A stretch of DNA of 64,000 nt from Asterochloris sp. CNOR1 (taxonomy: Eukaryota; Chlorophyta; Trebouxiophyceae; Trebouxiales; Trebouxiaceae), in NCBI GenBank assembly GCA_963969365.1, contig OZ017751.1:3100001-3164000 (forward strand), written 5' to 3'. Under the pieces are notes generated by a model. That model saw only the letters and a list, made by a program, of their open reading frames with translations, had not been told where the DNA came from and made no database searches. Below, one piece after another: positions 7,001 through 53,700 of the stretch. The position numbers and the translations under genes are program-made. Positions within the stretch are counted from its first letter, which is position 1. The number at the start of each line of letters is the position of its first letter.

Positions 7001-10000
7001 AGACAGGTTGTGGGACTCACAAAAGCCAGCGAACCCACAAACCAACCTGCATGAGAGCCACTGCCTTGACAAGGCGCCTGTCGGACACATAGACTGGGGG
7101 CTCGCACTTGTCCTGCAGCCACTGCCGCAGGTCTGCTAGGGTCTGAATGACCTCCCCGGGAACCTTCACGTGCTGCAGAGCCTCCTGCCTGCAGGGCACA
7201 AAGATAAAGCATTGGGTAGTGTGGGGCCTCTGGTTGTGCACCGTAGGCTCTACATTTGCACCAGAACCTGCATGCTGCAGGTCAGAGTATCCAGCAAGAG
7301 GGTTTCAATGTTTGTGCTGGCAGTCAAGACATATGAGCTGCTTCGGCAGAGCCTGAGCCACATGTGCACAGCCTCACACATCTAGCCTAGAGGGCAGACA
7401 TGGGTTGTTGCATGCCAGCGCAGGCCTGGCAGTCTGTGTTCCCAGACAATGGACTCAGCTGCAGTACTGCACTGCCCACCTAATCTGTTGGAAGTCCTCC
7501 ATGCTGAGTGCAATGTCCTCAGGGGCCTGTGCAGGAGCTGACCCTGGGCCACTGCCATTGATGCTGCTGCTGACCCCTCCCACAGCGCCGCCCTGCAGGC
7601 GCATCAGCAGCCAGCAACGATCAGCATTGGGAGGAAGTGTTTGAGCCCTGCCCATCTGCACTCACGCCAGATGGCCCGCAAAGGCCAGGCGGGGGCCTGA
7701 CAAAGTAGACCAGCTCACCATCTGACAGATGTGATTTGCATCCCTCAGATATCTGCAGCACTCCCTGTGTTGACTGCACTGCAGCTCTCCCATCCAGGGA
7801 ATAGGGCCAGGCAGACATCCCAGAAGCTGCCACTCACCGCCAGGTTATGCTCCGCAGCGCCGCTCAGCATCTGGGGCAGCCCTGCAGCGCTGACTTGCTG
7901 CACCTGTCGCCGGATCAGAAACCTGTCGTACAGGGCGTCCAGCTCCTCGCTTTCTGGGAGCTCATTGGAGGCGCCCACCTGCAGTGCGCAGCAAGGTCAG
8001 GCTGGACTCTCAAGACAGCCATGTAACTCTCTGACAATCAAGGCAAGGCATGCACAGCTTCCTGTCACTACCACCACCAGTCATATACAAGCGGGCTTGT
8101 TCTGGGCGTTGCTTGGGTGCCCGGCTCACGGCAGGTAGGGCAGGTCCCATGCTGAAGGAAGCACGCAACATGGGCGACCTTTAAGTATGGCGCCAACCTG
8201 CTTGAGGTTGCTGTGTCGTGGACCAAGCAGAGCAGACAATGGAAGGAACGTGTTCAATCTGGCGCATTGTTTGCTGCTTCAGCAAAAGCCCCCAGCCTCA
8301 CCAGGCACAGCAGAGGCACAGTCTCCCGCACAGCGCCATTGTCAAACAGGCGCTCGTTGAGGACGGTGAGCAGCGTGTTCAGGATGGCACTGTTGGCCTT
8401 GAAGACCTCGTCAATGAATGCCACATTGGCCTGGGGCAAGTACCCCTCAGTCTGCAGGCAGCAACAGGCTTCTTGTAGGGCAGCACAGCATCAGGCAAAG
8501 AGGGAAGACCCCTGGTCTGCAGCAGGCAGCAGCCAGCTGCTTGAGATCTTAAGATTGGGGCAAACCACTTGAATCAATCTTGGCGTCTCCAGTCAGCAGG
8601 CATCATGTGTGCACAGGGGTGAATGGCTCAACAAGATGCCTGGTCAGCAATGTGTGAGTCCAGCTGCCTGGTACCCCACACAGCTGTGGGCATGGTGCTG
8701 CACGAAGGACCAATGACGTAGGGTGCCCAGCAGCACCAGACAGCTATCGACCTCCAGAAAGCATGCTGGGTCTACTTTGTGATATGCTCAGCAGCACCTC
8801 GCTGCATTGCAAATTGCTTTTTTAATAAGTAATACTTGCCTGGCGGACATACTGGTCCTCTTCCAGCGCTCGCATCGAGAGGGGGCCAAACAGCTCCTGC
8901 AGCACAGAGGATGCTTGACATCAGCTTTGGCCCTGCTGTGCCCTCAAGACGCCACAATCAAAGGGCTGCTACATGCGCAGGCCGGCCGGCCAGAGGCAGC
9001 CTCTGCCCTTGGGCTGACAAGCAGGGATGTTCTCAGCTGCTGTGGCCGCACAGTTAGCCAGATGCTGGTGTCACCCAGGGTGCATGGCTCAAGCCTGGCT
9101 TAAAAATCCAACAGCTCACAATGCCAGTGGCCAGCCCATACTGCAGCTGACTGACAAGTAGTGCTTGGCTCACCTCCGGCACACTGAAGCGGGTCAGCAG
9201 GCGCTCGAAGAAGGTCCCCTTGCAGAGGCGAGTGAGTCGGCGGCCCAGCTCGCTCTTGGCTGTGCCAGGGGGGCCCACGTACAGCACATGTTCCCCTGCT
9301 AGGGCAGCCAGCAGCAGCAGCCGCACCTGCAGCATGGCAGGGATGTGTGTGACCTGGCCGCAGTGCATGCATTGCAGCACATGTGTGAGCACCCATCTGC
9401 TGGTCTCAGTGTTGGCTGCTGCCCGGCCAGCCAGGCTGCTGCTGCTGCGGCAGGTACACCCATCCCCAGAAGTAGCGGCAGCAGCAAGCTGGGGCAAAGC
9501 ATGAGGCTGGCAGTGCGTCAGCTCAGCATCCATAGGGCTGCAGCAGGTCGTGAGATGCTGCTGCCACTACTACACGGTTACAAAGCATGCACTCCCACTA
9601 TGTGGGAGAGCTATCAGCCTCAATCTCAGGACCTTGATGAAAGTCACACCTTTGGCTGCAGGGGATGATCGAGCCCTTCTGCATCACGCCCACACCCAGC
9701 GCCTTTTACACGCGCTGAAAGTGCATGGCGCCTTCATACCATCAGCAGCACGCCAGAAACCAGCCTTGAAGCACGCCCAACCCCACCTGCGAAGCACCCT
9801 TTACCAGCCCTGACTGCAGGCCTCAATGGCACGCTGCAGCTTGCATCACAGGTCACTGCCAACGCAGCAGTGGTCCACCAGCCCCCAACCACCTGTGTGT
9901 CTCGCTCCACCAGCCCCGACTGCATGACCTTAAGGGCATGCCACAGCTGGAACCGCCAGGCAAGATCAAGTCAGCAGTGCTCCGACACCACCCTGCTCCC

Positions 10001-10916
10001 ACACACCTCTGTGTCCCTCTCCACCAGCCCCGACTGCATGGCCTCGATGGCCCGCTGCAGCTTGGGCCGTAAGCCCGATGTCCGGTCGGCTGCGCTGCCC
10101 TTGCCCTCCTTCCGCTGGCTGGCAGTCCTCTCCACATCCTCCACTGCAGCCTGGTAGGCCTGCCTGGCAGCAGTCTTCACCACTTTGTCCTGCACGGCGG
10201 ACCATCCCGGTGCATGTTGGTGGCGGGGAGCCCCCTGCACCTGCCCCATGGGGTCAGATGGCTCCTGCAGGGTGGATGCGCGTGCTGCGCATGGCAGCGG
10301 ACAGGGCAATCCCTCAGGAAGGCACGGGGCTGTGGGCCGGCTGCACATATTGCTGTGCAGCGCAAGGTGGCAGGTAGGCTTTCAGGCAGACTGCATGAGA
10401 AGCACTGGAAATGAAAAAGCCTCGCACCTCTTCGAGCCGCTTCTCCTGCTTTTTAGCTTCAACATTTGCACTGGCACCTGCAGTAGGAGATGCACGACAC
10501 TGTCATGCATCAAGCAATCAGTACAATGCTGTGCTGACATGCGCCGGCCCCGCTCCCCACACCAGACACTTAGGCTGACCTTCAGCGTGTGTGACATGCC
10601 TGCCAGCGAAGTATTTGTTGAACCTGCATGCAGGAGCTGCGCATGTTTGATGTGCTTTTGAAAGCACCTGAGGCAGGATCTGCAGGCAGACCGACCTTGA
10701 CTGAGCAGCCTGGGTGCTGAGCCCTCGGTGTATGAGCTGAGAAGATTTGAGCAGACGAAACTGAGGGGCTAGAGGTATGCAGTTTCCAACAGCCTCAGGC
10801 AAGCAACGGCCAGCAATAGATCGCGAGCCCTGTGCGAGCCAGGTCATAGTTGTGTATGGCTTATGACAAGAAGGCAAAGAGGACTGACCTATGCGATCAC
10901 AGGTCAGATGGGCCAT
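4007..10916 (-). CDS. RavA/MoxR-type AAA+ ATPase
   Basis: Thirteen exons close in phase and give 1938 nt, 645 residues: 10696-10916, 10428-10470, 10007-10264, 9174-9326, 8840-8896, 8302-8451, 7838-7978, 7480-7592, 7047-7188, 6268-6433, 5586-5747, 5133-5248 and 4007-4222. The AAA+ core is unmistakably RavA-like. Walker A GPPGTAKS is near residues 192-199, ELFGPLS at 226-232, Walker B FIDEVF near 256-261, sensor 1 GASNELPE near 296-303, and an Arg in LYDRF near 313. The lid region carries YVSDRRLVKA and LLLQHILWQRPEE. RavA ATPases are hexameric MoxR chaperone-type machines known mainly from bacteria. Residues 1-75 could be an organelle leader (MTWLAQ.. from an internal Met, then a basic Ser/Leu-rich stretch). 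Intron 8452-8839 begins GCAAGT. The last intron (4223-5132) is long, so a missed exon there is possible. Confidence 0.85.
5302..5325. repeat. 8-bp microsatellite, AGGCTATC x3
   Basis: Three perfect copies of AGGCTATC lie in a ravA-like gene intron. No function is suggested. Confidence 0.8.
6449..6492. repeat. 22-bp direct repeat, two copies
   Basis: Two adjacent copies of a unit starting CAGGTCTGGACTGGTG lie in the ravA-like gene intron, just upstream (minus sense) of exon 6268-6433. They differ at one base. Confidence 0.75.
8452..8839 (-). other. GC-AG intron in the ravA-like gene
   Basis: On the minus strand the exon encoding ELFGPLSMRALEEDQYVRQ ends CGCCAG and continues GCAAGT, the textbook GC donor. 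The next exon starts after CTGCAG with TEGYLPQANVAFIDEV. Splicing here rebuilds the continuous RavA motif order and keeps phase 0. Confidence 0.85.
9795..10075. repeat. About 110-bp tandem repeat, three copies, spanning an exon end and donor
   Basis: The 3' end of the ravA-like exon 10007-10264, encoding LQRAIEAMQSGLVERDTE, has two decayed copies in the following intron. They share a block like CACCAGCCCCGACTGCATG. The copies start near 10030, 9917 and 9810 on the plus strand, about 108-113 bp apart. Only the first is joined in frame to the Walker A exon. Confidence 0.7.
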
Positions 10917-11031: not shown

Positions 11032-14000
11032 ATGCAGGCCCTACTTAGTGCCCTCATCAGGCAGCAACAGCCAGCCCTAGATGCTGCTCTCAGATGGAGG
11101 CTCACTCCCGTGGCGATCAAGCACTTTGCAGCAGCTGCAGTCACCGCGACTGATGTGCAGAGCACAGCAGGTGAGGATGGAGACCTGTAGCCTGTCTGGA
11201 CCTCATACTGCAAGCTGGCATCATCTTCCTGAGATGTGCTGTTCCCCCTGCAGGCACCAGCGGCAGTCAATGGTGGCGGGACCCCAGTATGGATGCGGCT
11301 CAGGCACAGGCAGTCTTCAGGCAAAGGTTGCAGACGCATGGAGCCCAGGGTGAGCCGCAGGATGTCCACTGATGAACTTGCCTGCGCTGTCTGCTGGCAG
11401 CTCATGAGGGATGGCTGTCTTCCAGGCACACTGCGTTGCTGATGGCAAGGAGGATCACCAGCATGTAGGTGCCCTGCAGGAAGGGCTCACTCTTTGCAAG
11501 GCATTTCATGTTCACCTGCAGGACATGGTCAAGTGTGCTGCGCGGCCGTTCATTCATAGCTTGGGTCTCTGAGCAGCACAAGCATTTGGGCCCTGCCTGC
11601 AAGCCAGCCAGCGCGCCCTGATGGCAGCGTGCATGTGGTGGTGCACTTCACATGCAGTGCTGTACTTCCTGCTAACTGCTTGACTAGCAGGGGGAGCTGG
11701 CCGCTTTGAGGAAGCACTCCTCCCTTGCAGCGCCCTGAAGGCTCCAAAACACGCTTGCGGCTGTATTCTGCTTGCATATCCCAGCAAGACACAAACTCCC
11801 ATCTCTGCATGCATACAAGCAGGCCCTGCTGACGAGCTCTTCACACAGAAACACTGTGCTGCAGACCTCATCCCTGCCGCTCACAGCTGCATACTGGCCT
11901 TACATACCCACAGACTTCCTAAAACCCAGTGCCTTTGAAGTTGATCACCACTGCTTGCAGACCAGCGAGGCCTGCTGGCGGTTTTCGAGCGCATCTCCAG
12001 CCAGGAGGAGGCTGCAGCAGCACTCGAGGCTGTAGCGGAGCTGCGGCGCCACCGCGCGCACCAGCAGCAGCACTCCCTGTTCCACATGGTCAAGATGGAT
12101 GCCTTCTTCCGGGTGAGGTGTAGGGTTGGGGGCTCTCTGAGGGACAGGCTACCTCTGGAAGGTGGGATGCTGCTGCTGAGGCCAGCACTTGCAGCATCTC
12201 AATGACTACTTTGTCCAGGCTCTTGTTACGTTGAGGGGGGCTGCATGCTGCCTCTGGGAAGGGGGGTTTCCCTGCTGAGCCTTGCACACGCACCAGCTGC
12301 GACCATGGGTCTGGTGTCCAGATTGTTGTCAGCGTGAAGACTGCAAGCTGCCTCTGGGCATGGGGCTTTCCTGCTGAGGCGGGTGTCAGCAGCCAGAACA
12401 ACAAAAACAAAACTGCATGGAAACAAGTCTGACATCAGACTATCTTCACAGTGAGGCGTGGTCAAGCCTGCAGGCTGCCTCTGTTAAGGGTGTCCTGCAG
12501 CTGAGGCTGGCAGCGGCAGCACCACATGCCAGCTGTAGTCAGTGCTGGCCACTAGAGCTGGCCATTGAACCTGTGTGCGTGGCTGCCAACAATGCTAGCT
12601 GGGAGGTTGCAATCAGGCTGCCTACCACACCAGTTTGGCAGATGTCAGGTGCCGAGCAGGGCCACTGCAGACTGTCATCAAGACCAGCACTGTGTCATTG
12701 TGAGGCAGGAACCTGCAGGCCACTCCCAAGGCCAGCTAATCAGATGGGGCAGCCACTGCAACAGAGGCCTGCTGCTTGTCATGGCACTTGGCAGCGGTCC
12801 CCTTGAGATGGGCCACTGGCCTGTAAGCTGTTGCTCGGGGGCCGCAGGGCTGGCAGGCCAGATTGGTGGTACTGGGCGTGGGCTGAGCAGGTGTCTGGGC
12901 AGCTTGGGCGTGCAGAGAGACTAGTTGTGCCTCTGACTGAGCCTCCACTGAGGCAGCTGGGCTTGGGCTGCACGTGTCTGGCTACCAGCCGGGCTTGGGC
13001 TGCATGTGCCCAGCCGTTGTAGGGCTGCTGCCGGCAGCATTGGTGTTTGACAAGGTGTCTGCTGGTCTGCCCAGGGATGCAGACCCACAGGAGCAGCACA
13101 TGCCAGAGGAGTGCTGGCTGTGGGGCATGGACCTGTAAGCCGCACTCGTAGGCACCACGCCCTCCTTCAGCCTGCTCAGCACCCTCTCACCCTCCTTAAG
13201 GCTGCTCAGCATCCTCCAACCCACCTTCTGCTGCAGGCATGCCGCAGCGTGGATGCCTGGAAAGTGGCAGTGGAGGCGCTGGAGCGGGCGACGGAGTTGG
13301 GCATATATGCCGGCGTCGCCCGCTACAACATGGTGCTCAAGTGGCTGTGCAACCAAAGAGCACTCTCAGAGGCCCGCCAGTGAGTCTCGCCTCCCTGTCG
13401 CATGCAGCTGCTTGGTCAGCCAGCCCCAAAGGGAGCCTCTACAACACCTTCAACTCCGCGGCCAGATGGCTCCTTGTGCTGGTTCTTTGCAAAAGACTTC
13501 ATCCCACAGCAAACTTTGCGTTGCACCTGTCCGACTGCCTTTGCCAGCCCGCAGTGCTAGTGCATTGTCAATTGTGACGGGTGGTCTCTTGTGTTTGCAC
13601 TCTCAGGCGAGAGCACGCTGCCTGTGCCAGCCAGCAGCGGTGCCGTGCAAAACTGCGGTGGTCAGGCAGCGAAAAGGGTTGCAGGCTACTTGAGATGGTG
13701 CAAGAGCACAGACTCAGCCCCACACAGAACCTTGACCACCTGTTGGTTGTTTGCCTTCAGTGCTGCCGTACAAAGCCCATGCTTGAGACCACTGTGGCCG
13801 CCCTGCAGGCTGTTTGAGATGATGAAGCAACACAAAGTGCGCCCAGACAGCACCTCGGCATATCACCTGGTGCGCACGTCCATGCTGCTCGGGCATCGGA
13901 GCCTGGCTGAGGCGTATGTGCGCGAATTTGAGTCCAATGGCATCAGGTGCGTGGCCTTACTGAGTTCAGACTAGTCCCAAGGTTCCAAGTAAAGGTGTCT

Positions 14001-14535: not shown

Positions 14536-17500
14536 ATGGTCACGCGCGTGATGCAGTCCTTGGCGGCAACCTATTGTTATGTGGTGGCTTTCCTGGGGCT
14601 GGACCTCGTAGCTAGGACCTCTGGTTCGCTCCCAGGTGACTGTCAAGCCAGCAGAGCACCAGCAACCACCGGGAGATCAGCAGCCATATCCTGCAGCTGC
14701 ATGCGCCCTGTGACTGCCTGCTCGCGCTGCTGCCGGCTACTCTTGATGCCTGTCTGAGTGGCAGCTGTCTGCCTGTCTGCTGGCTGCTGGAGTTGCGCCC
14801 GCGCTTTGACCAACTGCAACATGCCGGTGCCCCTCACAGGTTGAAGTACCTGCATTGCTGTGGCAGCATTGCACCAAACTGTTCTCCCTGCCTCCTGAGC
14901 CTGGTGCTGCTTGAGCTGGTGGCCAGGACATGCACCTGCAATTTCATTATGTTTATGCTGGCAGCCTGCATGTGGCTGGCTGCAGGGATTCAGGCTACCT
15001 CTTCACTGCCATCTGCAACCAAGTCCTTGTGTCTGGCTGCCTGCAGGCGCCTTTCAGGCCCGCTTTGGCATTGCCTGGCTGCAAATGGTGCATTCCCCAT
15101 CAGTTGATGAGTCGTTTGCGCCTGCCATTCATAACTTTCGGCTGGCTGCCTGCAGGAGCCTTCCAGGCCCCACAGGAGAACAACCCCATTGCGATCTTCA
15201 CGAGCTTCGTCATAGGGCCAATGTGGTGCACCACCCTGCTGGCTCTGGGTGAGGCTGGCCCCTCTATGCAAAGTGTGTGCCTTCTTTTGTGGTCAGCAGC
15301 ACCCTCTTCTGCCAGTCCCCTTTTCAGTCCAGCAGCGCTGGCCTCCTTCTGAGGCTTGTTGCCTGCATAATGACCTGCACACCTTGTACTCTGCCTGCTG
15401 TGAGGCAAGTATCAGCATGATCACCTGAACTTTGCTGCTGGCTAGCTGGTGACTTTCCAGCTAGCTGCCCTGTGCTTCAGTCAACCCCTTGCAAGCAGGG
15501 ATCTTGCAATCTGGTGTTCAGGGTCCCTGTCAAAATTTCAGGTGTGGGCTCCACCTGTGAAGTTTCATTGTGCCTGTCTTGTCTCAGATGGCATGCTTGG
15601 CTGCAGGCGTCCTCGTCAAAGTGATCAACACCAGCTTCCAAGCCATCGACGGCGTCCTTGTCATCAGCAGCAGAATCCCCAGCTTCTTTGGGATTGCCTT
15701 CAACTGGCGCATTGACTGGGACACCAGGGCTGCCATCAACAGATTCCTGGACAACGTCCTCGCCGCTGTCACCGTGTTCTTTGATGTCAGCCCTTGTGAG
15801 TCTACCCAGTTCCAGCAAACATGTCCGTTTCTATGCATCAAGCAACCCTGGGAGCATCCTGTCTCACACCCCCTTCAGCGCCTCAACCCCCTACCACTGT
15901 TTGTTCACAGCTGCCCTGCCCCAGCCTGGGCGCCACCCCTGCAGGCCGCGTGGTCTGCCTGCCAGGCCCGGTGCCTCCATGTACAGCAGTGCCCAGAGTT
16001 GCCCCACAGCTGTGCTGCGGCTTGCTCAGCTCATCCTTGCCCCTGTGGAGTCTGCCACCCTTTCTGCTGCTTTCTCTGCGCACAGCTGCCCTGCCGTGCA
16101 TGAGGTGTGCCAGCAAGGCTCATCACCTCATCTTGAGGGACACTCTGCTTCAATCACCTGCCAAAAGAGCTGTGCAATGCAGCTGGCTGGCCTGCCAGCT
16201 GTACATACTGTGCCCAGCGTCTGGCCGCCTGCCTGCAGACACAGTGCTGGTGGCGCCCATCGCTGACCCCTGCACCAAGGGCTTCAGGAAGGCAAAGGCG
16301 TCGCGCCGGACCGCCGGGGTCACTAAGCTGCTCGAGGGTGCGAGCAACCTGGCCTACGGTAGGTGCCCCACCGCTGCTGCCGCGGCAAACCGTACGCCTC
16401 GGCCTGCTGTAGGCTCCCCACAGCTGTTGCCATTGCAAGGCCCCAGCTATGGGCTCAGCACTGTCTCTGCATGGACAGCCATGCTCCACTTAACTGCCCT
16501 TTGTATGCCCTGTGAGGGGCCCCCTGCTTGCCCCCTGCTTGCCACCCTTCTGCCGTGGCTGGCTGCCCTTGTGGTGCAACATGCGGAACTTCAAGCGGCG
16601 CATATCAAAGCCCATCTGCTTCTTGTCCTGCAGGGGTCCTCATCAGACCCGCTGTCTCCTTTGCCACCGCCATGTACAACATCTACATGGACACGGTGGC
16701 CGCCATCTCCAGCTTTGCCATCTCATCCTGGGTGGCCACCTCCACACTGCCAATCTGTGAGTCTTCAACTCCTGAGCTGTGCCCAGTCTGCACACCTCCC
16801 TGCCAGCTGCCTGTGTTGTCGCATTCTTGTTGCCCCAGTCTAGGGCTGCGGATGACCCCAAAAACCTACCTGCCTTGACAAATGTTACCTGTGTGAGCAA
16901 GCTTGTAAAGGGTGTGTTCAACCACCAGGGCTGCAGCACTTCATGCCCTGCCAGCTGCCCAGCTGCCCTGCCCTCTCTGGCTGCTTGCCTGGCTGTCCTG
17001 CATGTGTTCAGTCAATGTTGTTATAGCACACACTTACTTCGCACCACGCAACATCCTTGCGTGCAAGGGGCTGAGGCTGTGTTTCCCTGCCTGCTGCCGC
17101 CCTGCCCCGCCCCATCCGCTGGCTACCTGCCTGCCCTACATCTGCTGGAGTACCAACCTTTCTGACGGGCTTTGGACTTGCAAGCCGTCGCCACCGCTTG
17201 TTTTGCAGCTCCCTCAGCATTCCTCTGCTTCTGCCTGCAGACTTTCTGTGGGCGAGCTGTAAGCACGGGCTGCGGGGTGCCATTGGTGAGGCTTGCTGTC
17301 CTGCCCCTATCGGCCTTGGTGCTTACGCCCCCTCAATCCCAGGACACTCAGGTCCAGCAACAACTCTCACACCGGCCAGCCAGCTCAGCCCAGAACCTCT
17401 GCCAGGGAGTCGTCCAGAGCTCTCTGCATGCAGCTATTGTGTACAAAACTGTTCACATGCTCTCGCTGTGGGCAGCCCTGTTTCAGCCTGCTGTAGCCTG

Positions 17501-22150: not shown

Positions 22151-22159
22151 GTCAGGCAA

Positions 22160-37000: not shown

Positions 37001-38869
37001 TAGACACCAACACTGCAGCAGCTCATTTGCCACCCTGCAGTCCTTGCAGCAAAGATGTCACTATACCGACCTGCAGGACCAGGAGGAGCGTGAGCGTGCT
37101 GAGAGGGAGCACGCGGAGCAGAAAGCAAAGGAGTGCCAGGCAGCAGAGCAGGCCGCCCTTCGGGTGAGGCCATGTGCTGAGGTGCCTTTTTGAGGGACCT
37201 GGTCGCTGTCTGCTTGCAGCAGGTGGAAGGTCATGCTGTGGTAAGCTTTTGAAAGGCTGCAGTCTTCTGCCTGCAGTTGGTGGAGCATAGATGCTGCTTG
37301 CATGGGTGGCGTGGTGCGAGAGCTTTCCAAGCTTGCGGCAGGTGCAAAGCGGGTGCCTGTGGCTTACAGGGTCTCATGTGTCGACCAGTGGAGTAGCCTG
37401 ACGTTGCCCCGTTTGGAGTTCTGCTGGTGACTCTTCTGGATGCCCCAAAGTGCTTCAGGATTAGCTTGAGCAGCTGTGTGCTGGGCCATGGGCAACAAGA
37501 AGGGCGGCAGTCCCCAGCACAACATGTCTGGCATGCGGCACTCCAGCGCCGCACGCCAGGCGCGGCAGCCGGCTTGGCTCTGTGATGGGCACTGCCGTGC
37601 TTGGACCTTCCTGTGATGCTGCAGACACATGCAGAGCGCCAGAGAGTGGCATGGCACAGGTGTGCAGAGCGGATCTGAGGCTGGAGGGGGAACGAAGCCC
37701 TGTCCCAATCCCAAGGCGGCCAGGGGCGCTGAGAAAGCTGCAGATGCTGGCGCTGCCAGGCAACCCAAACTTGCTGCCTGCTGCAGGGCCTGCATTGCAG
37801 CCCGTCATGCCCTGTGACACCATTGATGATGGCAGCCACCATCTGAGCATTGTTGGCTGCTGCAGGTGCATGAGGCATGGGTGATGCAACAGTTGCTCCC
37901 ATTATCTGTCAGCACCACCAGGCTATGCCTACCTTGGCTCAGGAGGCTCAATTTCTGCTGCAGGCCCATGCAAGGCGCCAGCGTCTGCTGCACTAGGCCT
38001 CGCTACAGGGCCCGCCTTTTCTTCAGGCAGTGATCTTGGCAGCGCACAAGAACAATCCGAAAATGCGTGCCCAAAGGAGCAGTAACATCACCTGACGCAC
38101 AAGGCTCATTTGCTGCTGCAGGCTCACGCACAGCGCCAGCGCCTGGCGCATCAGGCCTGGCTGCGGGAGCACCCCGAGGTTCAGCTGCAGGAGCGGCCGC
38201 TGCGCGAGCTGGAGCCAGATGTCTTCAGGGGAGCCTCTGGCAATGCCACAGCGGTGAGTCGTGGCCTTGTCATGTGGTTGGCCCCTGTCAGGCAACTTGT
38301 GCAACATGGCCCAATGGTCATGACTCAGCAGTATGACCTGACCTGCAAATGCCATCCATGTACTGGGCCGATGCATATCACATCATCCAGACCTTCAAGG
38401 AAGGAGTTCAATGGCTGCATAACAGCGCTTGGTCCTGCAGCTTGTCCCTCCCACAAAGTGTGTCATGGGCACACACGTTGGCCACACTGCTTGAAAAGCA
38501 TGTCTGCTGTGGCCAGGCTATCTTAAGGGCAACTCTTGGGTGGGATGCATATGTCAAGTTGTTGCTTACGACATCTTTCCTCTGCAGCAGCAGCAGCAGC
38601 CCAACCAGCGGCGGCGCAAGGGGCAGCGGGACGCACACCCGCCAGACCCTGAAGCCCTGGAGGCACAGCTCCAGCATCACCAACAGCAGCAGCGTGCCGG
38701 CGGCAGGAATGGCAAGAAGCGGGGGAGCACCGTGCCGTCTGTGCCGCCCACCTTGTTTGACTTCCCTGACAGAACGGCGTCCTCTGGCGCTGGGGTAGGC
38801 TCTGACCAGGTGCCCAAGAACCAGTCTGGAGGGGACTCTGCAGGTGTGCTTTGCTAGCCGCTGGGGGTT

Positions 38870-39390
38870 GCTTACTGCATGGGTGACAGGCCACCTGCAA
38901 TGCTTTGCCTGCACCTCCCTAGGAGGCGACGCTGCAGGTGGTTGATGCAGGTGCCGCTGATCGTCGAGAGCTGCTTGCTGCATGGCTGACAGGGCACCTG
39001 CACTGCTTCGCCGTCACCACCCACTGGAGGGACGCTACAGGTGTGGGCTGCAATGGCCGCTGGCTTGCTGCCAGTCCTGTTGCCTGGCTGACAGGGCCGG
39101 CAGCGAGAGCCCGGGAACCCCTCTGGATGGGACGCTGCAGGCATGTGCTGTACCCCTCTTGCTGCTCTTCTTGCTGCGTGGCTGACAGGGCAAAAGCAGC
39201 ACTGCTGGCTGATGGTCAACCTGTGGAGGGGATGCTGCAGATACATGCCGCAGACCCTGCTGGCCTGCTGCGCGTCATGCTGCATTGCTGACAGGGCAAA
39301 AGCAGCGCTTCCCGACTATGTGTCATCCTGTGCATGGGCTGCTGCAGATGTCTGCTGAACTTGTCGTCGGCCTGCTGCTTGTCGTGCTGC
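38870..39390. repeat. About 100-bp tandem array, five copies (left arm)
   Basis: A block like GCATGGCTGACAGGGCA recurs near 38879, 38981, 39082, 39178 and 39283. Each is followed by a segment like GAGGGGACGCTGCAG. The array lies in an intron of the decayed U-box gene and has a counterpart in the right arm. Confidence 0.72.
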
Positions 39391-40966
39391 ATGGCTAGCA
39401 TACTACGTTGCTTCTTGTCCTGCCCTAGAACACTGCAGATGATCAGTTCTCAGTCCCAGTACATTGTGCTGTGCTTGTTCTTGCATGCTGACGTCCTGCA
39501 GCTGTGGAGCTTGACCACCGAGCACTGGAACGCAAGCAGCATGCAAGCAGCGCTGCCTGCCTGCACGACGAGCCTGAGCGAAGCTGCAATCTGGCGCAGC
39601 CTGTCTACATGATGAGCTTGAGCGAGTCTGCTTGCAGACAGTTCTTCTCTGCAGCTGGCGTGAGGCAAGCCCTATGCACACTTGCAGTTGTAGGAGACAC
39701 GCGAGAGGAGCGGGCAGCCGCTGCTATGACCGCCGCAGCACAGGCGCTCAAGCCGCGCCCTGGCAGGAGGGTCCAGCAGCAGCGCCCGCCGTCGCCCCCG
39801 CGGGCTGCATCGCCAGCCGCTGGGGCTGCCTTAGCAGCCTCCACGCTGCCTGGCCACCCCTGCTCTGGGGCAGCAGCAGCAGCAGCGGCAGGGCAGGGCG
39901 CCCACCTGCCTGCAGCGGTGGCCACTTTCAGAGCTGTGCCGACAGGCTTGGGGAATCTGGACGGGTTTCTGCCGCCTGAGAGCAGACCTTGGCAGCAGGT
40001 GGGCAGCGCTATGTGAGGTCTCTCATGCTGGCTGCCAGTGAGGGCATGGCACAGGCGGACAGCTTACCTGCACAGCGCAGTCTGTATGTCTGGTGGACGC
40101 AAGCTTTCTATGGAGCAATGCCTGTTTTGTCTCGCTTCTTGTTGGTAAGACAGAAGCAGCACCAAGCGGCCAGACCTAGCAGCAGCAGCTTGGGACGTCC
40201 GCAACTGCCATGCAGGCCCAAGCTGTGCCCCAGCCGCCCCTGCAGTTCAGCGCCCAGCAGTCTGGCACCTACTTCACACCTGAGCTGCCAGCAGGCTCTG
40301 CTGCAACGGCAGCCCCAGGGCAGAGCCACAGCGCGAGCTTGGCCTGTCCAATCAAGCCCAGGCCTCCAGAATCTGGGGCCCCGGCTGTTCCACAGGGAGC
40401 CTTCCCGGTGCCACCTCCGCAGCCAGCAGCAGCAGCGCCTTCTCACCCTGCTGCTGCTGAGGCTTGGGGAAATCCTGGGAAGGCCAGGCCTGAGGAAAAC
40501 AGCCCCTGGCTGGCCTACCTGCGATGCCCCCTCACCAAAGTAGGTTTGACTGGGTTTTGCTTTGCACTTTTTCCGTCTGGAGAAGTTCTGAGGCACCGAG
40601 TCCTAGCCATAGAGACGCTCTGCTGCCAGGCTGAACAGCTTCAGGGTGTCAGCTGCATGAATTCACTGCCTGCCCCTGTATTGCCTGCGGCACCTCCCAC
40701 GACGGTGCATCCATAGGCTTCATTCTCTTGGACGCCCCTCTGCTGCATGCATCACTGCCTCAGCAGGGACCAGGGCAGGGTTTAGGGCCTTTGTGGTAGC
40801 GACTGCATTGTGGGGCAGTACTCTTCCTGCATCAGGCTGTGGCAGGGTCCTGACAACACCTCAATGCATTGCCCTTTCACCCAGCTCAGGTCATGGTCTG
40901 CTGCACACTCAGTCAACTGCCCTGACGGCAGGTGCATCTCCGAATGTCACCTCTGTGCCTGTGCAG

Positions 40967-41143: not shown

Positions 41144-41294
41144 CGTCGACAGATGGAACTTATAATCATGCTCTTCTCCTCACCTCAGCCAGCTTCTGTT
41201 CAGTGACATCTCATGTGAAAGGAAGTGCCCTGCTCAATGCAAGTGAAGTATGGGCAGACACCGGCAAGATTCGTCTGGCAGCCTTTTCAGATGA

Positions 41295-41386
41295 GCGCCA
41301 TAGGTTTTGTGCTCCAGTGCTGTGAGTGTACCCACAGGACACCACACTCAGGCATAACTAGCCCTGCCTAATCAACCTTGTCAGGC
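41295..41386. other. Spacer at the centre of the inverted repeat
   Basis: Arm similarity can still be followed to CTGGCAGCCTTTTCAGATG ending near 41294, matched by its inverted counterpart CATCTGAAAGTGGCTGCC starting near 41387. The 92 bp between show no obvious symmetry and no gene. Confidence 0.6.
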
Positions 41387-41540
41387 ATCTGAAAGTGGCT
41401 GCCAGACAGATACCGCCAAAATGTGCCCTTACTCCACTTGCATGGGTAGCAGGGCACTTGCTTAAAATGAGATGTCTTTGAACAAAAGCTGAATGCAGTG
41501 AGCTGATGAAGAGCATGATGACGTTGTACATCTGTCGACG

Positions 41541-41717
41541 TCATCTTGACAGATGCTCAATGGCGCTCTTGATGGAACGATTCTGCACGAGCGTGGGGTT
41601 CTTGCCCAGGTCCACACCAGTGGTTGGGCTGATGGTGCTTGTTTTGAGGTACTCCAGCAGCGCTGACCTCTCAAAGGTGGTCCCATCATGGGCAAGAATA
41701 GGGTCCACAAACACTTT
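41541..41717 (-). CDS. U-box terminal exon, right arm
   Basis: This exon mirrors the left-arm one: 59 codons after GTGCAG, with FVDPILAHDG, SPTTGVDLG and NRSIKSAIEHLSR before the stop. The upstream exon ending at 41899 supplies RCPLTK. It is the C-terminal end of the large minus-strand gene. Confidence 0.85.
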   Translation of the reverse strand, partial: KVFVDPILAHDGTTFERSALLEYLKTSTISPTTGVDLGKNPTLVQNRSIKSAIEHLSR

Positions 41718-44700
41718 CTGCACAGGCATGGAGGTGACGATCAGTGATGCACCTGTCGTCAGGAGGCAGGCAGTGAATTCATGCAGCTGATACCTTTCTA
41801 ATGCTGTCCAGCCTGGCAGCAGAGCTTCTCCATGGCTGGGACTGAGAGCCTGAACATTTGCATTTTGCAGAAAAGCAGCGAAACCCAATGAAACCTACTT
41901 TGGTGAGGGGGCAGCGCAGAGAGGCCAGCCAAGGGCTGTCTTCCTCAGTTTGGGCCTTCCCAGAATTTGCCCGAGCCTCAGCAGCAGCAGCAGGCTGAGA
42001 AGGCGCTCCTGCTGCTGGCTGCGGAGGTGGCACAGGGAAGGCTCCATGTGGAGCAGGCCGGGCTCCAAACCCTGGGGGCCTGGGCTTGACTGGCCTGGGC
42101 AACCTTGCGCTGGGGCTCTGCTGCAGGGCTGCCTGCGCAGCAGAGCCTGCCGGCAGCTCTGGCGGGAAGTAGGAGCCGAACTGCTGGGCGCTGAACTGCT
42201 GGGGCGGTTGGGGCACAGCTGGGGCCTGCAAGGCAGACACAGACGACCCATGCTGCTGCAGATAGGTCTGGCCGCTTGTGGCTGCTTCCACTTTACCAGA
42301 GAGAGATAAGGGAAAACAGGAATTGCTCCACAGAATGCTTGTGTCCCCCAGACATACATTCTGCGCCATGCAGGTAAACTGTCTGCCTGTGTCATGCCCT
42401 CATTGGCATCGAACATGTACACAGCGCTGCCCCACCTGCTGCCCAGGTCTGCTCTCAAGCGGCAGAAACCCGTCCAGGTTACCAAAGCCCGGCGGGATGC
42501 GATGCGCCTGTGGGGCCCCCTGACTGGCGGCCCCGGGCAGAGCTCTGGCAGTGGCCACAGCTGCAGGCAGGTGTGCCCCCTGCCCTGCCGCTGCTGCTGC
42601 TGCCCCAGACCGGGGGTGGCCAGGCAACATGGAGGCGGCCGAGGCAGACCCAGCGGCCGGCGATGCAGCCCGCGGGGGCGACGGCGGGCGCTGCTGCTGC
42701 TGGCTCCTCCTGCCAGGGCGTGGCTTCAGCGCCTGCGCTGCGGCGGTCATAGCAGCGGCTGCCCGCTCGACTCGCGTGTCTGCCGGCCCTGCAAGTGTGC
42801 ATAGGGTGTCCCCCAGGGCCAGCTGCAGAGGCAGGTCATCTGCAGGCAGTCTCGCTCAAGCTCATCACGCAGGCAGGCTGTCAGATTGTAGCCTCGCTGA
42901 AGCCCAGTGTGCAGGCAGGCAGCGCTGCTTGCGTGCTGCTTGCGTCCCAGTGCCCGGTGGTCAAGCTTCACAGCTGCATGACATCAGCACACAAGGACCA
43001 GCACAGCACAGGGTAGCGGGACTGGCTGTGCTCTCCTGCAGCGTCATAGGCAAGGAATGCAGCCAGGCAGTATGTCAGCTGTGCAGCACAATAAGCTGCA
43101 GCCAACGACAGATCCCAGCAGACACCAGCCCACTCAGAGAGAGTGACACGCAGCTCGGCAGCACTGCTTCTGTCTGGCAGCAGTGAGACATAGCAGCCAA
43201 CCCACAGGGATAAACACCTGCAGCTACGCCCTGCAGAGGGCCTTGGGGGGACAGGCACTGCTAGTGCCCTGTCAAGAATGAGCATGACCCACAGTAAGCC
43301 AGCAGCAGTCGGACTGAAGCTGGAGCACCCCCTCCAGAGGTTGATATACAGTGACGTAGCGCTGCTGCTGCCCTGCCAGCTACCCAGCGAGGCAAGCAGC
43401 CCAGCAAACGGCCATGCTGCTGCCCTGTCATCTATGTCATAGAGCAAGAGGCCAACTGGCAGCAGCACAGACCTGCAGTGTCCTCTGCAGAGGATGCTCT
43501 ACAGCCAGGCAACACACCAGGCACAGCACACCTTGGTTCCTCACTGCAGGCCACTTCAGCCAGTCAACAAGACTGCAGCAAGCCAGCAGCAGGTGCAGCC
43601 CATGCCTGCAGCATCCCTCCGGAGGCAACCGGAGGCGCAGTGCTGCAGGTGTCCTGCCAGCCCCTGTGACAGCAAGCCAGCAGCAATTGCAGCCAACATC
43701 TGCAGCGTCCCCTGTAAAGAGAGGTGGAAGGCAAAGCATTGCAGGTGCCTCGCCAGCCATGCAGCAAGCAACCCCCAATGTCCAGCTGCAGCGGCAACAC
43801 CCACCTGCAGTCTCCCATACAGAGGGGCTGAAGGGTTGCAAGTCCTGTTCTAGGTTGCTGTCGTCCGCACAGCAAGCCAGCCTCGGTGGCCCGCTTGAGT
43901 TGCAATGCCCACCTGCAGCGTCGCCTCCAGACTGTGTCCTGGGCAGCTGGTCAGGGCCTGCTCCAGCGCTGTTTGACAACTTCCTATCGAGGAAGTCAAA
44001 CAAGGTGGGCGGCGCAGACGGCAGAGGCCCCTCCCGGTGCTTGCCGTTCGTGCCGGCAGCATGCTGCTGCTGTTGGTGACGCTGGAGCGCTGCCTCTGGG
44101 GCTTCATGGTCTGGCTGTTGAGCGTCTCGCTGTCCCTTGCGCCGCCGGTGGTTGAGCTGCTGCTGCTGCTGCAGAAGGAGGGTGTCGTAAGCAACAGAAC
44201 ATTGAGGGCAACAGGAGGGCTCTTCAGGGCACACAGATGCATGGCACCTGCACACAGGCAGCGAACCCTGCTGTGCGCAACAGTGAGGCAAAATGAGGCA
44301 ACTTATGGGTGCAGCTGCGGCGTCTGCAGGCAGGAAGATTGCTGTGTGCTGCGGCAAGTCTTTGGGGACAATGATGGAGGGCTTTGCCGGCGCTGTGGTG
44401 ATGGCTGCATGGCACCTGCATGTAAGGTGCATGTCGTGCCGTGCCTTTGTCTGAAGGTAAGGAAGGCGCAGACGATTTCCAGGCGCTGCTGGGGCCACTA
44501 CTGTGGCTCATGCAGGCAAGACTGACTTGCGTGTGGGCCATGTTGCACAGGGGCCAAGGGTCGTCACAAGGGCGCTGATGTGGGCACCACCGTGTGGCAC
44601 CCCAGCTCACTGTGCTGTGCCCCTATGCAAAGACAAGGCAGGAGCATGCCTCACGGGCCCACTGTTTTGGGTCCTGCAGGCAGGATGCTGGTGCAAGCCA

Positions 44701-47700
44701 GTGCAGTACAACCCTGATGCAGCACCCACCTGAGAGCTGTCCAAGCGTCCATAGAATAGCCTGGCCACAGCAGGCATGCTTTACAAGCAGTGTGGCCAGC
44801 GTGTGTGCAAGCCCAGGGCATGTGAGAGCAGAAGCAAAGTGTGCCCCAGCATCCCCTGACGCCTCACCGGGGGCCTGGCTTCAGATAAAGGCACACAGGC
44901 CCATGACACAGTTTGTGGGAGGAACAAGCTGCAGGACCAAGCGTTGTTGCGCAGCCCATTGAAAGCGCCCCCCCCCCCCCCCCAAACTTAAAGGTCTGGA
45001 TGACACAATATGCCCGGCCCAGTGCATGGGGTGGCATGTGCAGGTCAGGTCTTGCTGCTGAGGCATACCCACTGGCCCATGTCACACTAGCTGCCTGACA
45101 GGGGCCCACCACATGTGAAAGCATGAGAAGGCCAGGACTCACCGCTGTGGCATGGCCGGTGGCTCCCCTGAGGATGTCTGGCTCCAGCCCCCGCTGCTGC
45201 TGCTCCCGCAGCTCGACTTCGGGGTGCTCCCGCAGCCAGGCCTGATGCGCCAGGCGCTGGCGCTCTGCATGGGCCTGCAGCAGCGAGTGAGCCTCGTGAG
45301 CCACAAAGCAAGGTGTCGGGGTGGTGGTGCCAAGTAGCTGCAGTCACTGCTGCTTTGGCCAGGCACAAGTGCAGCAGACATGCAGCTTCATTTTTTAGTA
45401 AGGGCCGCCAGGATCATTGCGATTGAGAAGGGAAGGCTCTGTGGCCGGGCGTCATGCAGCAGGCGCTCTGGATGGGCCTGCAGCAGCAAATGAGCCTTGG
45501 GAGGCAAGGGACAGTTGCAACATTGTGGTGCTTGCATGATGTTGCAACAGCTGATGCTCTGATCAGGCCTCATACGCCTGCAGCAGCCATTCTCTCCCAA
45601 CTTGGATGCAATTTTAGCATCTTTGCTGCACTCAGAGGGCGTGATGGGCTGCCACACAGGAAGGATTACCTTGAATCCGGAAAGGTTTCATCCAACCCTG
45701 CAGCAGGCAGCAAGTACGGGTTGCCTGGCAATGCCAGCCTCTGCAGCATTCCCAGCGCTGCTATGCTTCTTGGGCTTGGGGCAAGGCTCTGCCACCCCCC
45801 TGAGCCCCATGTCTGCTCTGCACAGCTGTGGCATGCCACTGTCTGGCACTCTGCATGTGACTGCAGCGTCACAGGAAGGGGTCAAGCCCAGCACTGCCCA
45901 TTACACCAAGTCAGCTGTCATGCCTGGTGCATGGCGCGGGCCTGCAGCGTGCGGGGTCTCCTGTGGTAGGGATTGCCGCTTTTCCCTTTGTCCATGGCCC
46001 AGCAAACAGCTGCTCAAGGGGTGGTCCTCCTATGCATGGCGCTCAGTACGGGCTTGCATCAGGTAGAGTTGGCAGGGCTGCGCCCTGTGCACTGCCTGCT
46101 GGCAGGATGCTCAGGCCACGTAGCAGACCACATGCATGGGCCCCTTGATGATCATTGTGAAGCGCTGTACCTTGTCACTGGTAATCTGCTGATGGAGGCA
46201 AGATCAGATCAGGTTCAACCATGCAGTCTACTTTCAGGCCATCCTGTGAGGGGGCCCAAGCCATAAGCACATGCTCTGCACCTGCAATAGCATGCACTGT
46301 CCATGTGTGTTCACATGCCATGTGTTCTGCTTGCAAGCACGCCATATGTTTCTAGGACCCGAAGCACTTTAGGTTGATTATCATATCAAAGAGCTGTAGC
46401 CTGTCACCAGCACTATGCCACTCAAGGCAAGGTCAGGCACTTGCACTGGTCAAGATATGAGAGAGTGTGAGCCAGCAGCACCTGTTCTGCACCTGCCGCA
46501 AGCAAGCACCTGTCTGCAAGCAAGCAAACCCCATGCACAAGAGCACACCTGCCGGCAGCATCTACGCTCCACCAGCTGCAGGCACGCAGCGATCAGGCCC
46601 CTGAAAATGACACCTCAGCACATGGCCTCACCAGCAGGGCGGCCTGCTGTGCTGCCTGGCGCTCCATCGCTTCCTGCTCTGTGCGCTCCCTCTCTGCGCG
46701 CTCACGCTTGTCCTGCTCCTGCAGGGCAGACTAGTGACGGGTTTGCTGAAAGTAGGGCAAAGCAGCAAAGCAGCTGCTGCAGTCTGGGTGTCTTGACTGT
46801 GCACTCAGAAATGTCTTTGCTGGTTCTTCCTGCACTCTCTTGTAGGTGTGTTGAGCACCGTCCGCGTCTGCTGTCTCATGAGTCAGCACAGGTGCAGCAT
46901 GCCACACAGAGTTATATTGCAGGTGCTTCAGTTTAGCATGACCAGTTCTCAGCACAGGTACCTCAGCATAGTAAGGATTGAGAAGTTGGTTGCTGTCATC
47001 CTCAGCCATGTTGCTTATGCAGTTGAGAGGCAATTGCGCATAGTGCTTCTGCTGCAGCGGCATCAGCTTGGTAGCTCATGTAACCACTCTGCATTGGACT
47101 TGCCGGCGCTTCACCTGGCTGACCATAACAGCCTGCCAAGTGATGTGATGGAACACAGGCTGGCAAAGACCCCACCTTGCACAGCTGCTCGTGCTGCGGG
47201 CCAGGTGCAGGCCCTTTGCATGCAAACTGTTAGGAGTGCACACCAGTCAGGTGCTGCAGCCCATACCCTAACCCACCTGATAAAGCTGCTGCCAACCCAT
47301 GCTAACCATTGGCAGCTCCTGCACCACGTACAGCCCTATCTATCTGCTCCAGATGCAGCATGCCAGCCTCTGGGAGCCCCTTGTAAACCCCACCTTGCGC
47401 AGCCTGTCCTGGCGCTCTTTGTTGACCCGCTCTTGCTCAATCGCGGCGGCCTGCTGGAGCTCCTGCTCCCTCCTCACCTCCGCTTCTGCCTCACGTGCCG
47501 CTGCCTGCTCCTCTGCCCGCCTCTGTGCCTGCTCCGCTTCCTTCCGGCGGGCGGTCTTGGCCGCCTTTTTGGCCTTCTTAAGGTCCTCTGCCTCAGCTGC
47601 CTGCATTCAGGGACATGCATGCTTTCAGCTCATACTTCTCTGCCACTTTGCTAGTCAGTAATCTGGCTTTACCTGTCGTGCCATGCCTGCAAGCGCTGGT

Positions 47701-50700: not shown

Positions 50701-53700
50701 TCCAATACAACAATTCAGCTAGAGAGCGGCCTGAGCACTGTGCAGCAATCCAGGCCACGGCTGGCTCATGATATTGTGAGCAGGCACTGGCTGCGCAAGT
50801 AGAGTTTGGACACTGAGTGAGGTCCGGCGGTGCCATTGCTTCACACAGGAGCGTGTTTCTGCATGCTCAAGCAGGACAAGGCCCTGCAAAGCTCTGCAGC
50901 ACGACATGGCCCTGCAACCCACCCCGGTATACTTGCGCTTGGCAGCGGCTATAGCAGCCTTCTTTGCTGCAGTTGCGGCCTTGATGGCCGTCGACAATGC
51001 CTCCTCGGAGGCAATCTTTGACTTCCGGGCAGCTTCCACCTTGTGGTCTGTGGCAGAGGGCCCCAGCGCTGCTGCTGCAGAGGCAGCAGCACCAGGTGCT
51101 TGTCGCACAGCCGCAGGTGGGCTGCTGCTTGCCCCTCCAACGGCAGGCTGCATTGCTTTTGGAGGTGCCTGGCCAGCAGATTTTGTCTGGCCGACAGCAG
51201 CTTTGCCCAAGGCTGCCTGCCCACCATCTGCCTTCTGTGCTGTGGAAGTCTTCCCAGCAGCAGCCTCTCCAGCTGCAGCTGTTCCGAGCTGCCCAGTGGC
51301 AGCCTGTGCCTTCTGGACAGCCTTCAGGATGGCACGCGTGTCAGTCAAGGCAGCAAGGCCTGCAGACAGCGCTGCAGGCGCAAGCCCGTCAGCTGCTGGC
51401 CGCTTGCCGCCTTTCCCCTTGGCCTGGCTGGCTGAGCCTTCTGCCCCCTTGGCAGCTTTGTGACTCCCAAGGGGTTCCAGAGTGGCTGCATCAGCTCTGA
51501 TACGCTCTGCCAGCTTCTCATCACGCAGGATCCTGCAGGAGAGCCATCAGATTGCTTGCTGCCCTGTACTGAGTAGGGTCCTGTGTCTGGTAGTGGCCAG
51601 CTATCTTCATTGTGTCATGTTCAGTGGGCAGTACATGAGAGGTTTGTGCAGCGCCCTGCCCGTTCATGATGGAGGAGACAACTGGCTGCTGCGCTTTGCA
51701 GTTGTCCTTGTGGCAGCTATCTGGCTTATTATGGGTTGCGCATGGACAGGTACGCCAGAACGGCCAGCTTCAGTCCACCTGGACAGCTACGCGCATTGGC
51801 ATCCAGTCTCTTATTGGCTGCAGCCCTGAAGCGAACAGACAATAACAGCAAAACTTTGCTGTAACCCTGGAGCCCAGATTTGCCACCAAGACGCCAGAAG
51901 GAACTAGTCTGACAGAACTCATCAGGTCTCACCTGTCCAGTCTGGGAGCCTCCAGCGCTGCCGCCGTGATGCAGAACTCAAAGGCAGTGGCCACAACTGC
52001 TTGGTTCTGATTGACTAGCTCCTGGAGCACTCGAAGGGCTGCTAAGCTGCGCACTGTCATGCCCAGGCGCTCCCTCACCTGCAAGCGGCAAGGAGGTGTG
52101 AGGAGCAAAGCAGTCCCCTGGCGAGCATTGCACATAGGATGCAGACGCTGTTCACTCTCACTTGGTCCCACTCCTGCTGGGTTTTCTTTTTAAAGACTTG
52201 GGCACTGGGCCACGCCAGCAGCCTCTCCATCGTGGCCACATCCAGTGTCTGCACAAACACACACAAAGCAGCTTGAGTCCACTCATGAGTACCAAAGGGC
52301 GGGGAAGTAATGGTGCAGCCACAGCAAGTGTCTGTTTGGACAGGCAACATCTACAGGATCATGGATTGGGGCTGGGCAGAGGCAGCATTATGGCACAGCC
52401 AGCAGCCAGATTGAGTGTACCACTGCACTACCGTTGTGCAGCCGATCTGCGGCAAAGCTGACCTGGAGCAGCCATGCTGGTTCACTTACACCAGACAGGT
52501 GGTTCAAAGCTGCAGATATTTCTCAAGAAAACAAATGCTCCTGAAAGCTGGCTCCCCTGGCCTAGCAGACACCTTGAAGCAGAGGCATTGCACGCCAGCA
52601 TCTGCTGTCCACACAGTACTGAGCCACACTGGAGATGTGCTACCGCCAGCACCGCTGCAGGCGAGGTTGGAAGCTGACCTTGTCCCCCTCGGTGATGCGG
52701 TAAACCAAGTGGTCCATATGGGTGTGCTCCCAGCCCCCGTGCTCCGCGCTCAGCTTGCACATGCGCAGCAACCAGTACCCCAGGTTGCGCTCCATCTGTC
52801 GACGCGCCAGCTCCACCACAGGCTTCCGCGCCATAAAGGCAGCAGCTGCCTGCAGGGTGGAGCACAGGTGAGCACAGCACTTGCTGCAGGTGCTGTACCA
52901 CAGGATGCTGCCGAGCTGGACCACAGGCTTCCAGGTGATAAAGGTGGCAGCTGCCTGCAGTGCAAAGCACAGGTGAACACATCTCTGCTGAAGGCGCTGC
53001 ACGGCAGCATGCTGCCAGGCCAACCACAGGTTCCACGCCATGAAGGCGGCAGCTGCCTGCAGGGTGGAGAACAGGTGAGCAAAAGTGCAGGTGCTGCACC
53101 GCAGTATGTTGCCAGGCCAAGTAGAGAGCTTTGGGCCACGAAGGGGCGCCGGCTGCCTGCGGTGCATTACTTCTCTGAGTGCAGATTTCGGTGTGTGTCA
53201 GCTCCGCTGAAGCTTCTATGCCCTGAACTGGGCAGGTGCCAGCTTGGTGGGGAATTCATGGCCATCTATGACTTTGCCAGGGGTTCCTTTGTGGAGTGGA
53301 TCAGGTCTGCCACAGGCTGTCAATTGCCAAAGGCAGCAGATGCATTGGCAGACATGCAGGGCGACAAGTGTGGTACTACTTGTTTCTGCCAGGTGGTGCC
53401 AGCAACTTTGGACTGCACTCATCTGCGGCTGCAGCCATCCACAGCAGACACATGCAAGAAACAGGTCCCTGCAGGGCTCAGCATCACGATTGCAGGCTTT
53501 ACTGACCATTGCTGCCCTGCATGCTGCATGGTGATGCGCTAGCGCCTACCCACGCAGCAAAAACCCCCACCATGTTCTGTGCAACAGGCAATGCTTCCCT
53601 CTGCATGAAGGGCCGCCACAAGGTGTAATGTGAAGGTAGCAAACCAAGAGTGGTCACCTGCAGCGCTGGGATGTCTGTGCCCTGCGTGCCCAGCATCTCG

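Follow-up and report, generated by a model that had tools for sequence, protein, structure and literature searches.

Why should many unrelated genes within one short stretch of an algal genome carry tandem repeats of nearly the same unit length, and why should the repeated unit so often include a splice junction? The stretch in question, called the window throughout, is 64 kb long (positions 3100001-3164000 of contig C6). A sequence-only reading had named seven places in it with duplications of about 100-113 bp, and had proposed a mechanism acting at a fixed distance and a route for making new introns or exons. Diverged direct repeats were found at all seven places, with main spacings of 94-114 bp. 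Such duplications are a genome-wide background and are not special to the window. We consider them, with a probability of roughly 0.75, to be remnants of ordinary short tandem duplications at many unrelated places, blind to gene structure and mostly no longer than about 350 bp. The process is most likely one already known, and its abundance in this genome merits genome-wide study. The earlier observation was thus confirmed in part; of its interpretation, the weaker claim of a possible route survived, while the fixed distance and the targeting of splice junctions did not.

The genome comprises 56.4 Mb in 21 contigs, and contigs C1 to C18 measure 2.0-4.5 Mb each. The stretch 1,000,001-1,010,000 of each of 18 large contigs served as the genome sample, giving 18 unselected 10-kb pieces (180 kb, numbered with an L); window and sample together make up 244 kb. 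Local repeats were sought by ungapped self-comparison at each spacing (match +1, mismatch -1.5), with a lower size limit of 20-30 bp and score thresholds of 14, 15, 16, 18 and 20. Hits and loci were kept apart, loci being non-overlapping and hit counts larger. Genes were predicted, from sequence alone, by a gene finder that was self-trained on the 244 kb in unsupervised mode.

Loci scoring at least 18 numbered 48 in the sample (0.27/kb) and 18 in the window (0.28/kb); at a score of at least 14 there were 90 and 34, respectively. The copies lay close together. At the threshold of 18, 72 sample hits had spacings of 30-299 bp and 7 had spacings of 300-4000 bp; the corresponding window hits were 28 and 1, and counts fell close to background near 350-400 bp. 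Orientation was equally one-sided, with 222 direct hits (spacing 20-299) against 19 inverted ones (gap <300) at a score of at least 14. The same test on 50 kb of E. coli gave 3, 1 and 0 loci at thresholds of 14, 16 and 18, and a single order-2 Markov shuffle of window and sample yielded no hit scoring at least 18 at spacings of 30-600 bp. Judged by the distant spacings, the inverted repeats, the shuffle and E. coli, chance or shared composition can be rejected. The median core identity of the copies was 0.84.

The repeats at the seven places in the window were as follows.

9776..10064, reverse strand: three diverged units at spacings of about 107 and 114 bp, holding the 3' end of a MoxR/RavA-like exon and its donor (self-BLAST, Pfam).
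12241..12371, forward strand: two copies at a spacing of 100 bp, upstream of PPR exons (self-comparison).
15033..15170, forward strand: an acceptor and exon start, with a copy 109 bp upstream in a predicted intron (self-comparison, gene model).
28326..28545, forward strand: units at a spacing of about 106 bp, upstream of an exon starting at 28541 (self-comparison, gene model).
38850..39396, forward strand: an array of about five units at spacings of 94-107 bp in the U-box gene of arm A of a large inverted duplication (Tandem Repeats Finder, self-comparison, Pfam U-box).
43540..44000, reverse strand: the array of arm B, homologous to the U-box array of arm A (arm alignment).
52806..53160, reverse strand: three to four units at spacings of 97-105 bp, holding an acceptor and exon start (Tandem Repeats Finder, self-BLAST, gene model).

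By core start, the spacings were 114 bp at 9878, 100 bp at 12241, 109 bp at 15033 and 106 bp at 28370; 103, 106, 107 and 94 bp within 38869-39396 and 94 bp at 43576 for the U-box arrays; and 105, 102 and 97 bp within 52809-53120. Tandem Repeats Finder reported only three of these arrays (at 38869, 39160 and 52806), the first two being parts of the arm A U-box array. Self-BLAST confirmed the repeats at 9776-10062, 38869-39396 and 52806-53160, and aligned 9776-9948 with 9884-10062 at 71% identity. In the MoxR/RavA-like gene a well-supported exon has its donor at 10006/10007, and the donor of a copy, at 9892/9893, also looks usable. A third copy was seen by eye near 12465-12495, upstream of the PPR exons; the PPR gene model starts at 13004, and 12241..12371 may or may not be an intron. 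At 15033..15170 the predicted acceptor is 15155/15156, and the upstream copy is still acceptor-like (9.8 vs 9.1). By eye, the last copy of 28326..28545 reaches into the acceptor, and an exon end with its donor is copied in several units of 38850..39396. The array that had been described as exon 52679-52849 is repetitive but lies at 52806-53160, overlapping only the 5' end of that well-supported exon.

Three of the seven window proteins submitted to Pfam upheld their earlier labels, namely MoxR/RavA (as bpMoxR), PPR and U-box. The two models of the so-called OTU region, the 'phase-1' gene and the 52.7-kb gene (612 of 794 residues submitted) matched no Pfam family. The window has 21 predicted genes, and the remaining 14, among them the arm B U-box gene, lay beyond the scan. 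Pfam families were found in all four sample proteins submitted (DPH6-type, dynein heavy chain, AlgH-like and TAP42).

A natural comparison is provided by an inverted duplication of about 10 kb with almost no spacer, whose arms (31803-41342 and 41343-51779) are 78.6% identical over 8,790 aligned columns. They carry the U-box and neighbouring genes and differ in array copy number and spacing. Three further features belong to this comparison.

37944..38162, forward strand: a duplication of an acceptor and exon start at a spacing of 158 bp in arm A, with a predicted acceptor at 38121 (self-BLAST, arm alignment).
45234..45506, reverse strand: the arm B counterpart of the 37944/38102 duplication, at a spacing of 203 bp (self-BLAST, arm alignment).
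35650..35757, forward strand: a duplication at a spacing of 59 bp in arm A, where arm B has a 55-base gap (arm alignment).

Of the 25 inter-arm gaps of at least 20 bases, three plainly duplicate adjacent sequence (96, 55 and 52 bases), scoring 24.5, 26.5 and 15.0 against 10.5, 9 and 9 for the best of ten shuffles; a few others beat their shuffles by at most 2 and were left out of the count. The 96-base stretch, at about 43721 in the arm B array, represents a unit that arm A lacks. These gap copies, together with the spacings of 158 and 203 bp for one duplication, indicate that copies continued to be gained or lost after the arms had formed and that spacing drifts. One sample locus is far less diverged than most: L016 4431-4846, with spacings of 213-238 bp and a core score of 96 over 111 columns. 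The process may be ongoing.

How might such duplications arise? Most likely a break or an offset pair of nicks would leave complementary overhangs, and their fill-in and joining would copy the stretch between the nicks. Paired nicks have reportedly been studied in plants. The copies would then diverge by point changes and insertions or deletions, and the spacing would drift as a result. An intronic copy would be spliced away with its intron, decay freely and lengthen the intron, and an exonic copy would be kept by selection. Arrays of several copies may grow by slippage or unequal exchange, and on rare occasions a duplicated AG|GT could yield a new intron. Small tandem duplications in mouse cells have been tied to fill-in at break ends (PMC8355091). 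Those are likewise direct, local and at unrelated sequences, and the direct orientation and strictly local placement of the repeats in this alga agree with short tandem duplications from break repair. They differ in that the mouse insertions are short (<100 bp), whereas sizes here reach about 350 bp and the intermediates of repair are a proposal.

Slippage or unequal exchange of the minisatellite type could also be the main cause, most loci being collapsed or decayed arrays. This we regard as improbable, although it survives better than the other alternatives. Three to five units lie at 38850-39396 and 52806-53160, and the arms differ by one unit. Tandem Repeats Finder gave these two arrays 1.9-2.7 copies, however, and with periods of at least 40 it reported five arrays in the sample and four in the window, none above 3.0 copies and few against the 48 and 18 loci at the threshold of 18. 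Slippage is not readily started from a unique unit of 100-200 bp.

Is a spacing of about 105 bp special? One alternative is a dedicated process that makes its copies at a constant offset of about 100-113 bp, set by the replication fork or by Okazaki or nucleosome spacing. Spacings of 94-114 bp accounted for 10/34, 9/25 and 7/18 window loci at thresholds of 14, 16 and 18, compared with 11/90, 5/62 and 3/48 sample loci (Fisher P = 0.025, 0.003 and 0.003, for a band picked post hoc; P = 0.046, 0.006 and 0.007 with one U-box arm dropped). In addition, the densest 21-bp band of the sample at a threshold of 14 was 104-124 (14/90 loci), and at the same threshold pieces L019 (104, 112, 115) and L008 (104 and 107 among four) echo the length. 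When the band was left free and one U-box arm dropped, the fraction of draws from the sample that reached the clustering of the window was 0.33, 0.088, 0.053 and 0.038 at thresholds of 14, 16, 18 and 20. Sample spacings were broad, with 10, 25, 50, 75 and 90% quantiles of 74, 92, 138, 202 and 258 bp (loci at 50-350 bp, threshold 14), and the densest band shifted to 69-93 at thresholds of 16, 18 and 20. Outside the window, no sharp peak near 105 bp was seen in the 18 pieces. Within the window, one duplication has spacings of 158 and 203 bp in the two arms, and the two U-box arrays (38.9-39.4 and 43.5-44.0 kb), which had been listed as separate cases, contain repeats but align with each other as arms of one inverted duplication. 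Two of the seven arrays therefore descend at least partly from one ancestral event. On the 244 kb the strong claim fails the refutation test that the sequence-only reading had set for itself (a flat period distribution, or no enrichment at splice junctions). A fixed-distance process seems to us very unlikely. The special length looks mostly like a local coincidence, with room in 180 kb of sample for a weak preference near 100-125 bp.

An alternative with about as little to recommend it holds that duplications are aimed at splice junctions, or retained for them, and serve to create exons and introns. The learned donor was CAG|GTGAGC and the learned acceptor CTGCAG|G; the 468 predicted introns had a median length of 202 bp and exons a median of 105 bp. 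In a naive test a junction lay in a copy at 34/82 loci against 19.4 expected, and 0/500 placements reached that number. This excess may stem from the shared splice consensus, from intergenic controls or from slower decay of a copy that holds exon, three sources that the naive test leaves unseparated. In a stricter test splice-motif columns were masked and random placements confined to genes; the two changes were made together, and the outcome speaks to their joint effect. At thresholds of 14, 15, 16 and 18, copies held a junction in 24/75, 22/65, 21/55 and 15/40 pairs, compared with 20.8, 19.0, 17.9 and 13.6 expected, and 40 to 72 of 200 random sets did as well (40/200 at the threshold of 14). 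Whole units spanned a junction in 38, 31, 27 and 21 cases, with 40.1, 34.1, 29.8 and 21.2 expected. The masked within-gene test was thus non-significant for cores and for whole units at all four thresholds. The claimed enrichment at junctions lost its significance, and no clear enrichment is seen beyond what compact genes give. That the units often include a junction is correct as a description; with exons of about 105 bp and introns of about 200 bp, a duplicated unit will often cross an exon edge, and the overlap is about what chance predicts. The reading frame is mostly preserved among exon-exon pairs, the spacing being divisible by 3 in 17/22 (18/22 lay within one exon), and the other classes were spread over the remainders.

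At the threshold of 14, 55 predicted junctions lay inside duplicated cores, some loci being counted twice since both copies hold a site. What became of the junction copies? For 26 strongly coding junctions the partner was not a predicted site, and 18 of these partners keep GT or AG, a figure inflated by the use of unmasked scores to select the pairs. Motif columns were slightly more alike than their flanks (0.847 vs 0.791). Both figures would favour duplications aimed at junctions or kept for them, as would the pairs with predicted sites in both copies discussed below. We read the junction copies mostly as exon edges that were copied into introns and are decaying there. In a DPH6-like gene (L006), a dynein heavy chain gene (L010), a TAP42-like gene (L019) and the MoxR-like gene of the window, sequence from an exon edge or its vicinity has a copy in an intron once weak mini-exons are discounted. 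In the DPH6-like gene the exon end and its strong donor recur 151 bp downstream (7501 and 7652, donor scores 7.8 and 8.3), so that alternative splicing is possible there; the residues that the copy would add are located between, and not within, the segments matching DPH6-type structures. In the TAP42-like gene a second version of the acceptor and exon start lies about 115 bp upstream of the exon in which the match to TAP42 starts, and the MoxR-like gene has its edge copy at 9892/10006. The copies in these three genes were called as small exons with low coding scores (0.2, 2.0 and 3.9). The predicted mini-exons 9893-9919 and 9787-9813, and those in L006 and L012, are probably decayed copies and not real exons. 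Consecutive donors matched in 3/385 pairs and consecutive acceptors in 2/389, against 0.06 expected each (score at least 26); two of these five neighbouring pairs lie in the window and some involve doubtful mini-exons. The use of some junction copies as alternative exons is compatible with these data.

Could tandem duplication have given rise to whole introns? Tandem genomic duplication is regarded in PMC3443670 as a genuine way of gaining introns, with 188 events listed. In the AGGT-duplication (Rogers-type) model described there, a segment with AGGT is duplicated directly and the intron length equals the unit length. For each of 450 predicted introns, the donor and acceptor regions were compared at an offset of one intron length. 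A single intron stood out, a predicted 89-bp intron (L003 8411-8500) with matching sequence on both sides. Its junction-anchored score was 22 with the motif masked, and shuffled partners gave 0.00 expected in 450 at a score of at least 12. AGGT is present in both copies (TGCAG|GTGAG and TGCAG|GTCAG). The 5' exon has a coding score of 46.0 and the 3' exon one of 1.5, and 89 is not a multiple of 3. This predicted intron, which matches the AGGT model, is a candidate for birth by tandem duplication. The host gene has an AlgH-like (DUF179) match.

When offsets of up to 15 bases were tolerated, 5/437 introns scored at least 14 against 0.0 expected; three of them, besides those in L003 and L004, are displaced copies and not junction-to-junction matches. 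We rejected L004 2498-2622 as a second case, its upstream exon being 15 bp long with a coding score of 1.0, and also L010, which had the top gapped donor-acceptor score (28.8) from a displaced exon copy and not from an AGGT junction. No window intron was a convincing product of duplication: no window array combined an intron as long as its unit, AGGT in both copies and coding sequence on both sides. The nearest was a predicted 107-bp intron (38844-38950), with an offset of 4 and a following exon of coding score 0.5. The proposed route to new introns or exons is sound as a possibility and has been published before; one predicted intron in the sample bears its textbook signature, and decayed-looking copies lie beside several exon edges. 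A bolder claim, which we find improbable, makes short tandem duplication one of the main contributors to intron length in this alga and a regular supplier of new introns. Of some 450 introns predicted in the 244 kb, AGGT birth fits one well (L003) and one weakly (L004), to which the five neighbouring pairs of matching splice sites can be added. If the claim held genome-wide, the way in which they arose could still be read from many hundreds of introns, an extrapolation that leans on a 56-Mb relative reported to have roughly 10,000 genes, each with 9 introns.

Dispersed introner-like or other mobile elements inserted nearby would account for similar unit lengths across genes, and introners are reported from green algae (PMC9860276), but we give this next to no weight, since five arrays searched genome-wide matched only themselves and, in one case, the sister arm (match counts being lower bounds, with common words skipped), and the copies are adjacent and include host exon. 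Dispersed elements are ruled out for these five arrays, the sister arm excepted.

Several points weigh against duplications that are ordinary, short and blind to gene structure. Some exceed 350 bp (461 in L004, 468 in L007, 517 in L014 and 430 in L018), and density is uneven, three of the 18 sample pieces (L002, L008 and L013) having no locus at a score of at least 18. The copies are mostly too old and diverged for repair scars to be read. Spacings of 94-114 bp are enriched in the window, and the free-band test comes close to or passes 0.05 at its two strictest thresholds (0.053 and 0.038). Masked core overlap with junctions exceeds expectation at all four thresholds, by at most about one standard deviation. 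In six pairs the predicted splice sites of the two copies coincide in position, compared with 0.0 expected (threshold 16), which could mean that some copies are used as exons; the gene finder may instead be calling decayed copies as exons. The sample covers just 180 kb of 56.4 Mb, the gene models are our own unsupervised predictions from sequence alone, and the comparator from outside the genome is a bacterium only.

How do these duplications compare with known systems? For the 188 listed intron gains, PMC3443670 cites Hellsten 2011 and Gao and Lynch 2009. The AGGT model differs from the present material in that only one convincing case, known from its DNA sequence, was found here in 450 predicted introns. 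In the potato RdRp gene a duplication across an intron-exon boundary made a new intron (PMC4974935). There the unit combines an intron's 3' part with the 5' part of the exon that follows, and the units at 15033-15170, 52806-53160 and 37944-38162 are laid out alike; the potato copy is a new intron in use, whereas the copies here, as read from DNA, look decayed. Tandem exon duplication (PMC9013439) reportedly also doubles exon parts beside the original, and the cases examined here differ in being mostly part-exons with one splice site and a decayed-looking copy. Introners (PMC9860276) would also yield many introns in a green alga, but here every unit searched belongs to a single place. Among the papers listed in a limited literature search, judged by title and the opening of the abstract, none described such duplications in a green alga.

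How introns originate and lengthen has long been asked, and well-proven cases are few; together with RNA and a close relative, a compact genome in which scars of exon-edge duplication are readable could supply many testable ones. The window also illustrates that a striking repeat length can fade against a wider sample, and that the splice consensus and the compactness of genes can give a false appearance of targeting.

Two smaller observations concern the window and the genome at large. By eye, the stretch 11960-12113 has a coding appearance and ends like a donor; the gene finder made no call there, and the stretch may belong to the PPR gene as an upstream exon. GC content is about 58%, and intergenic DNA makes up 27% in the predicted gene models. 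Asterochloris glomerata, a lichen alga, has 56 Mb, 10,025 genes, 9 introns per gene and about 26% intergenic DNA, with a GC content of 56-62% across 98% of its genome (PMC6652019); the present genome resembles it in size, GC content, intergenic share and intron richness, and any kinship is a guess. Two small contigs, C19 (43,319 bases) and C20 (110,056 bases), are of organelle-like size, and C20 is near the size of the algal mitochondrion printed as '11,0932' in the same source, probably 110,932.

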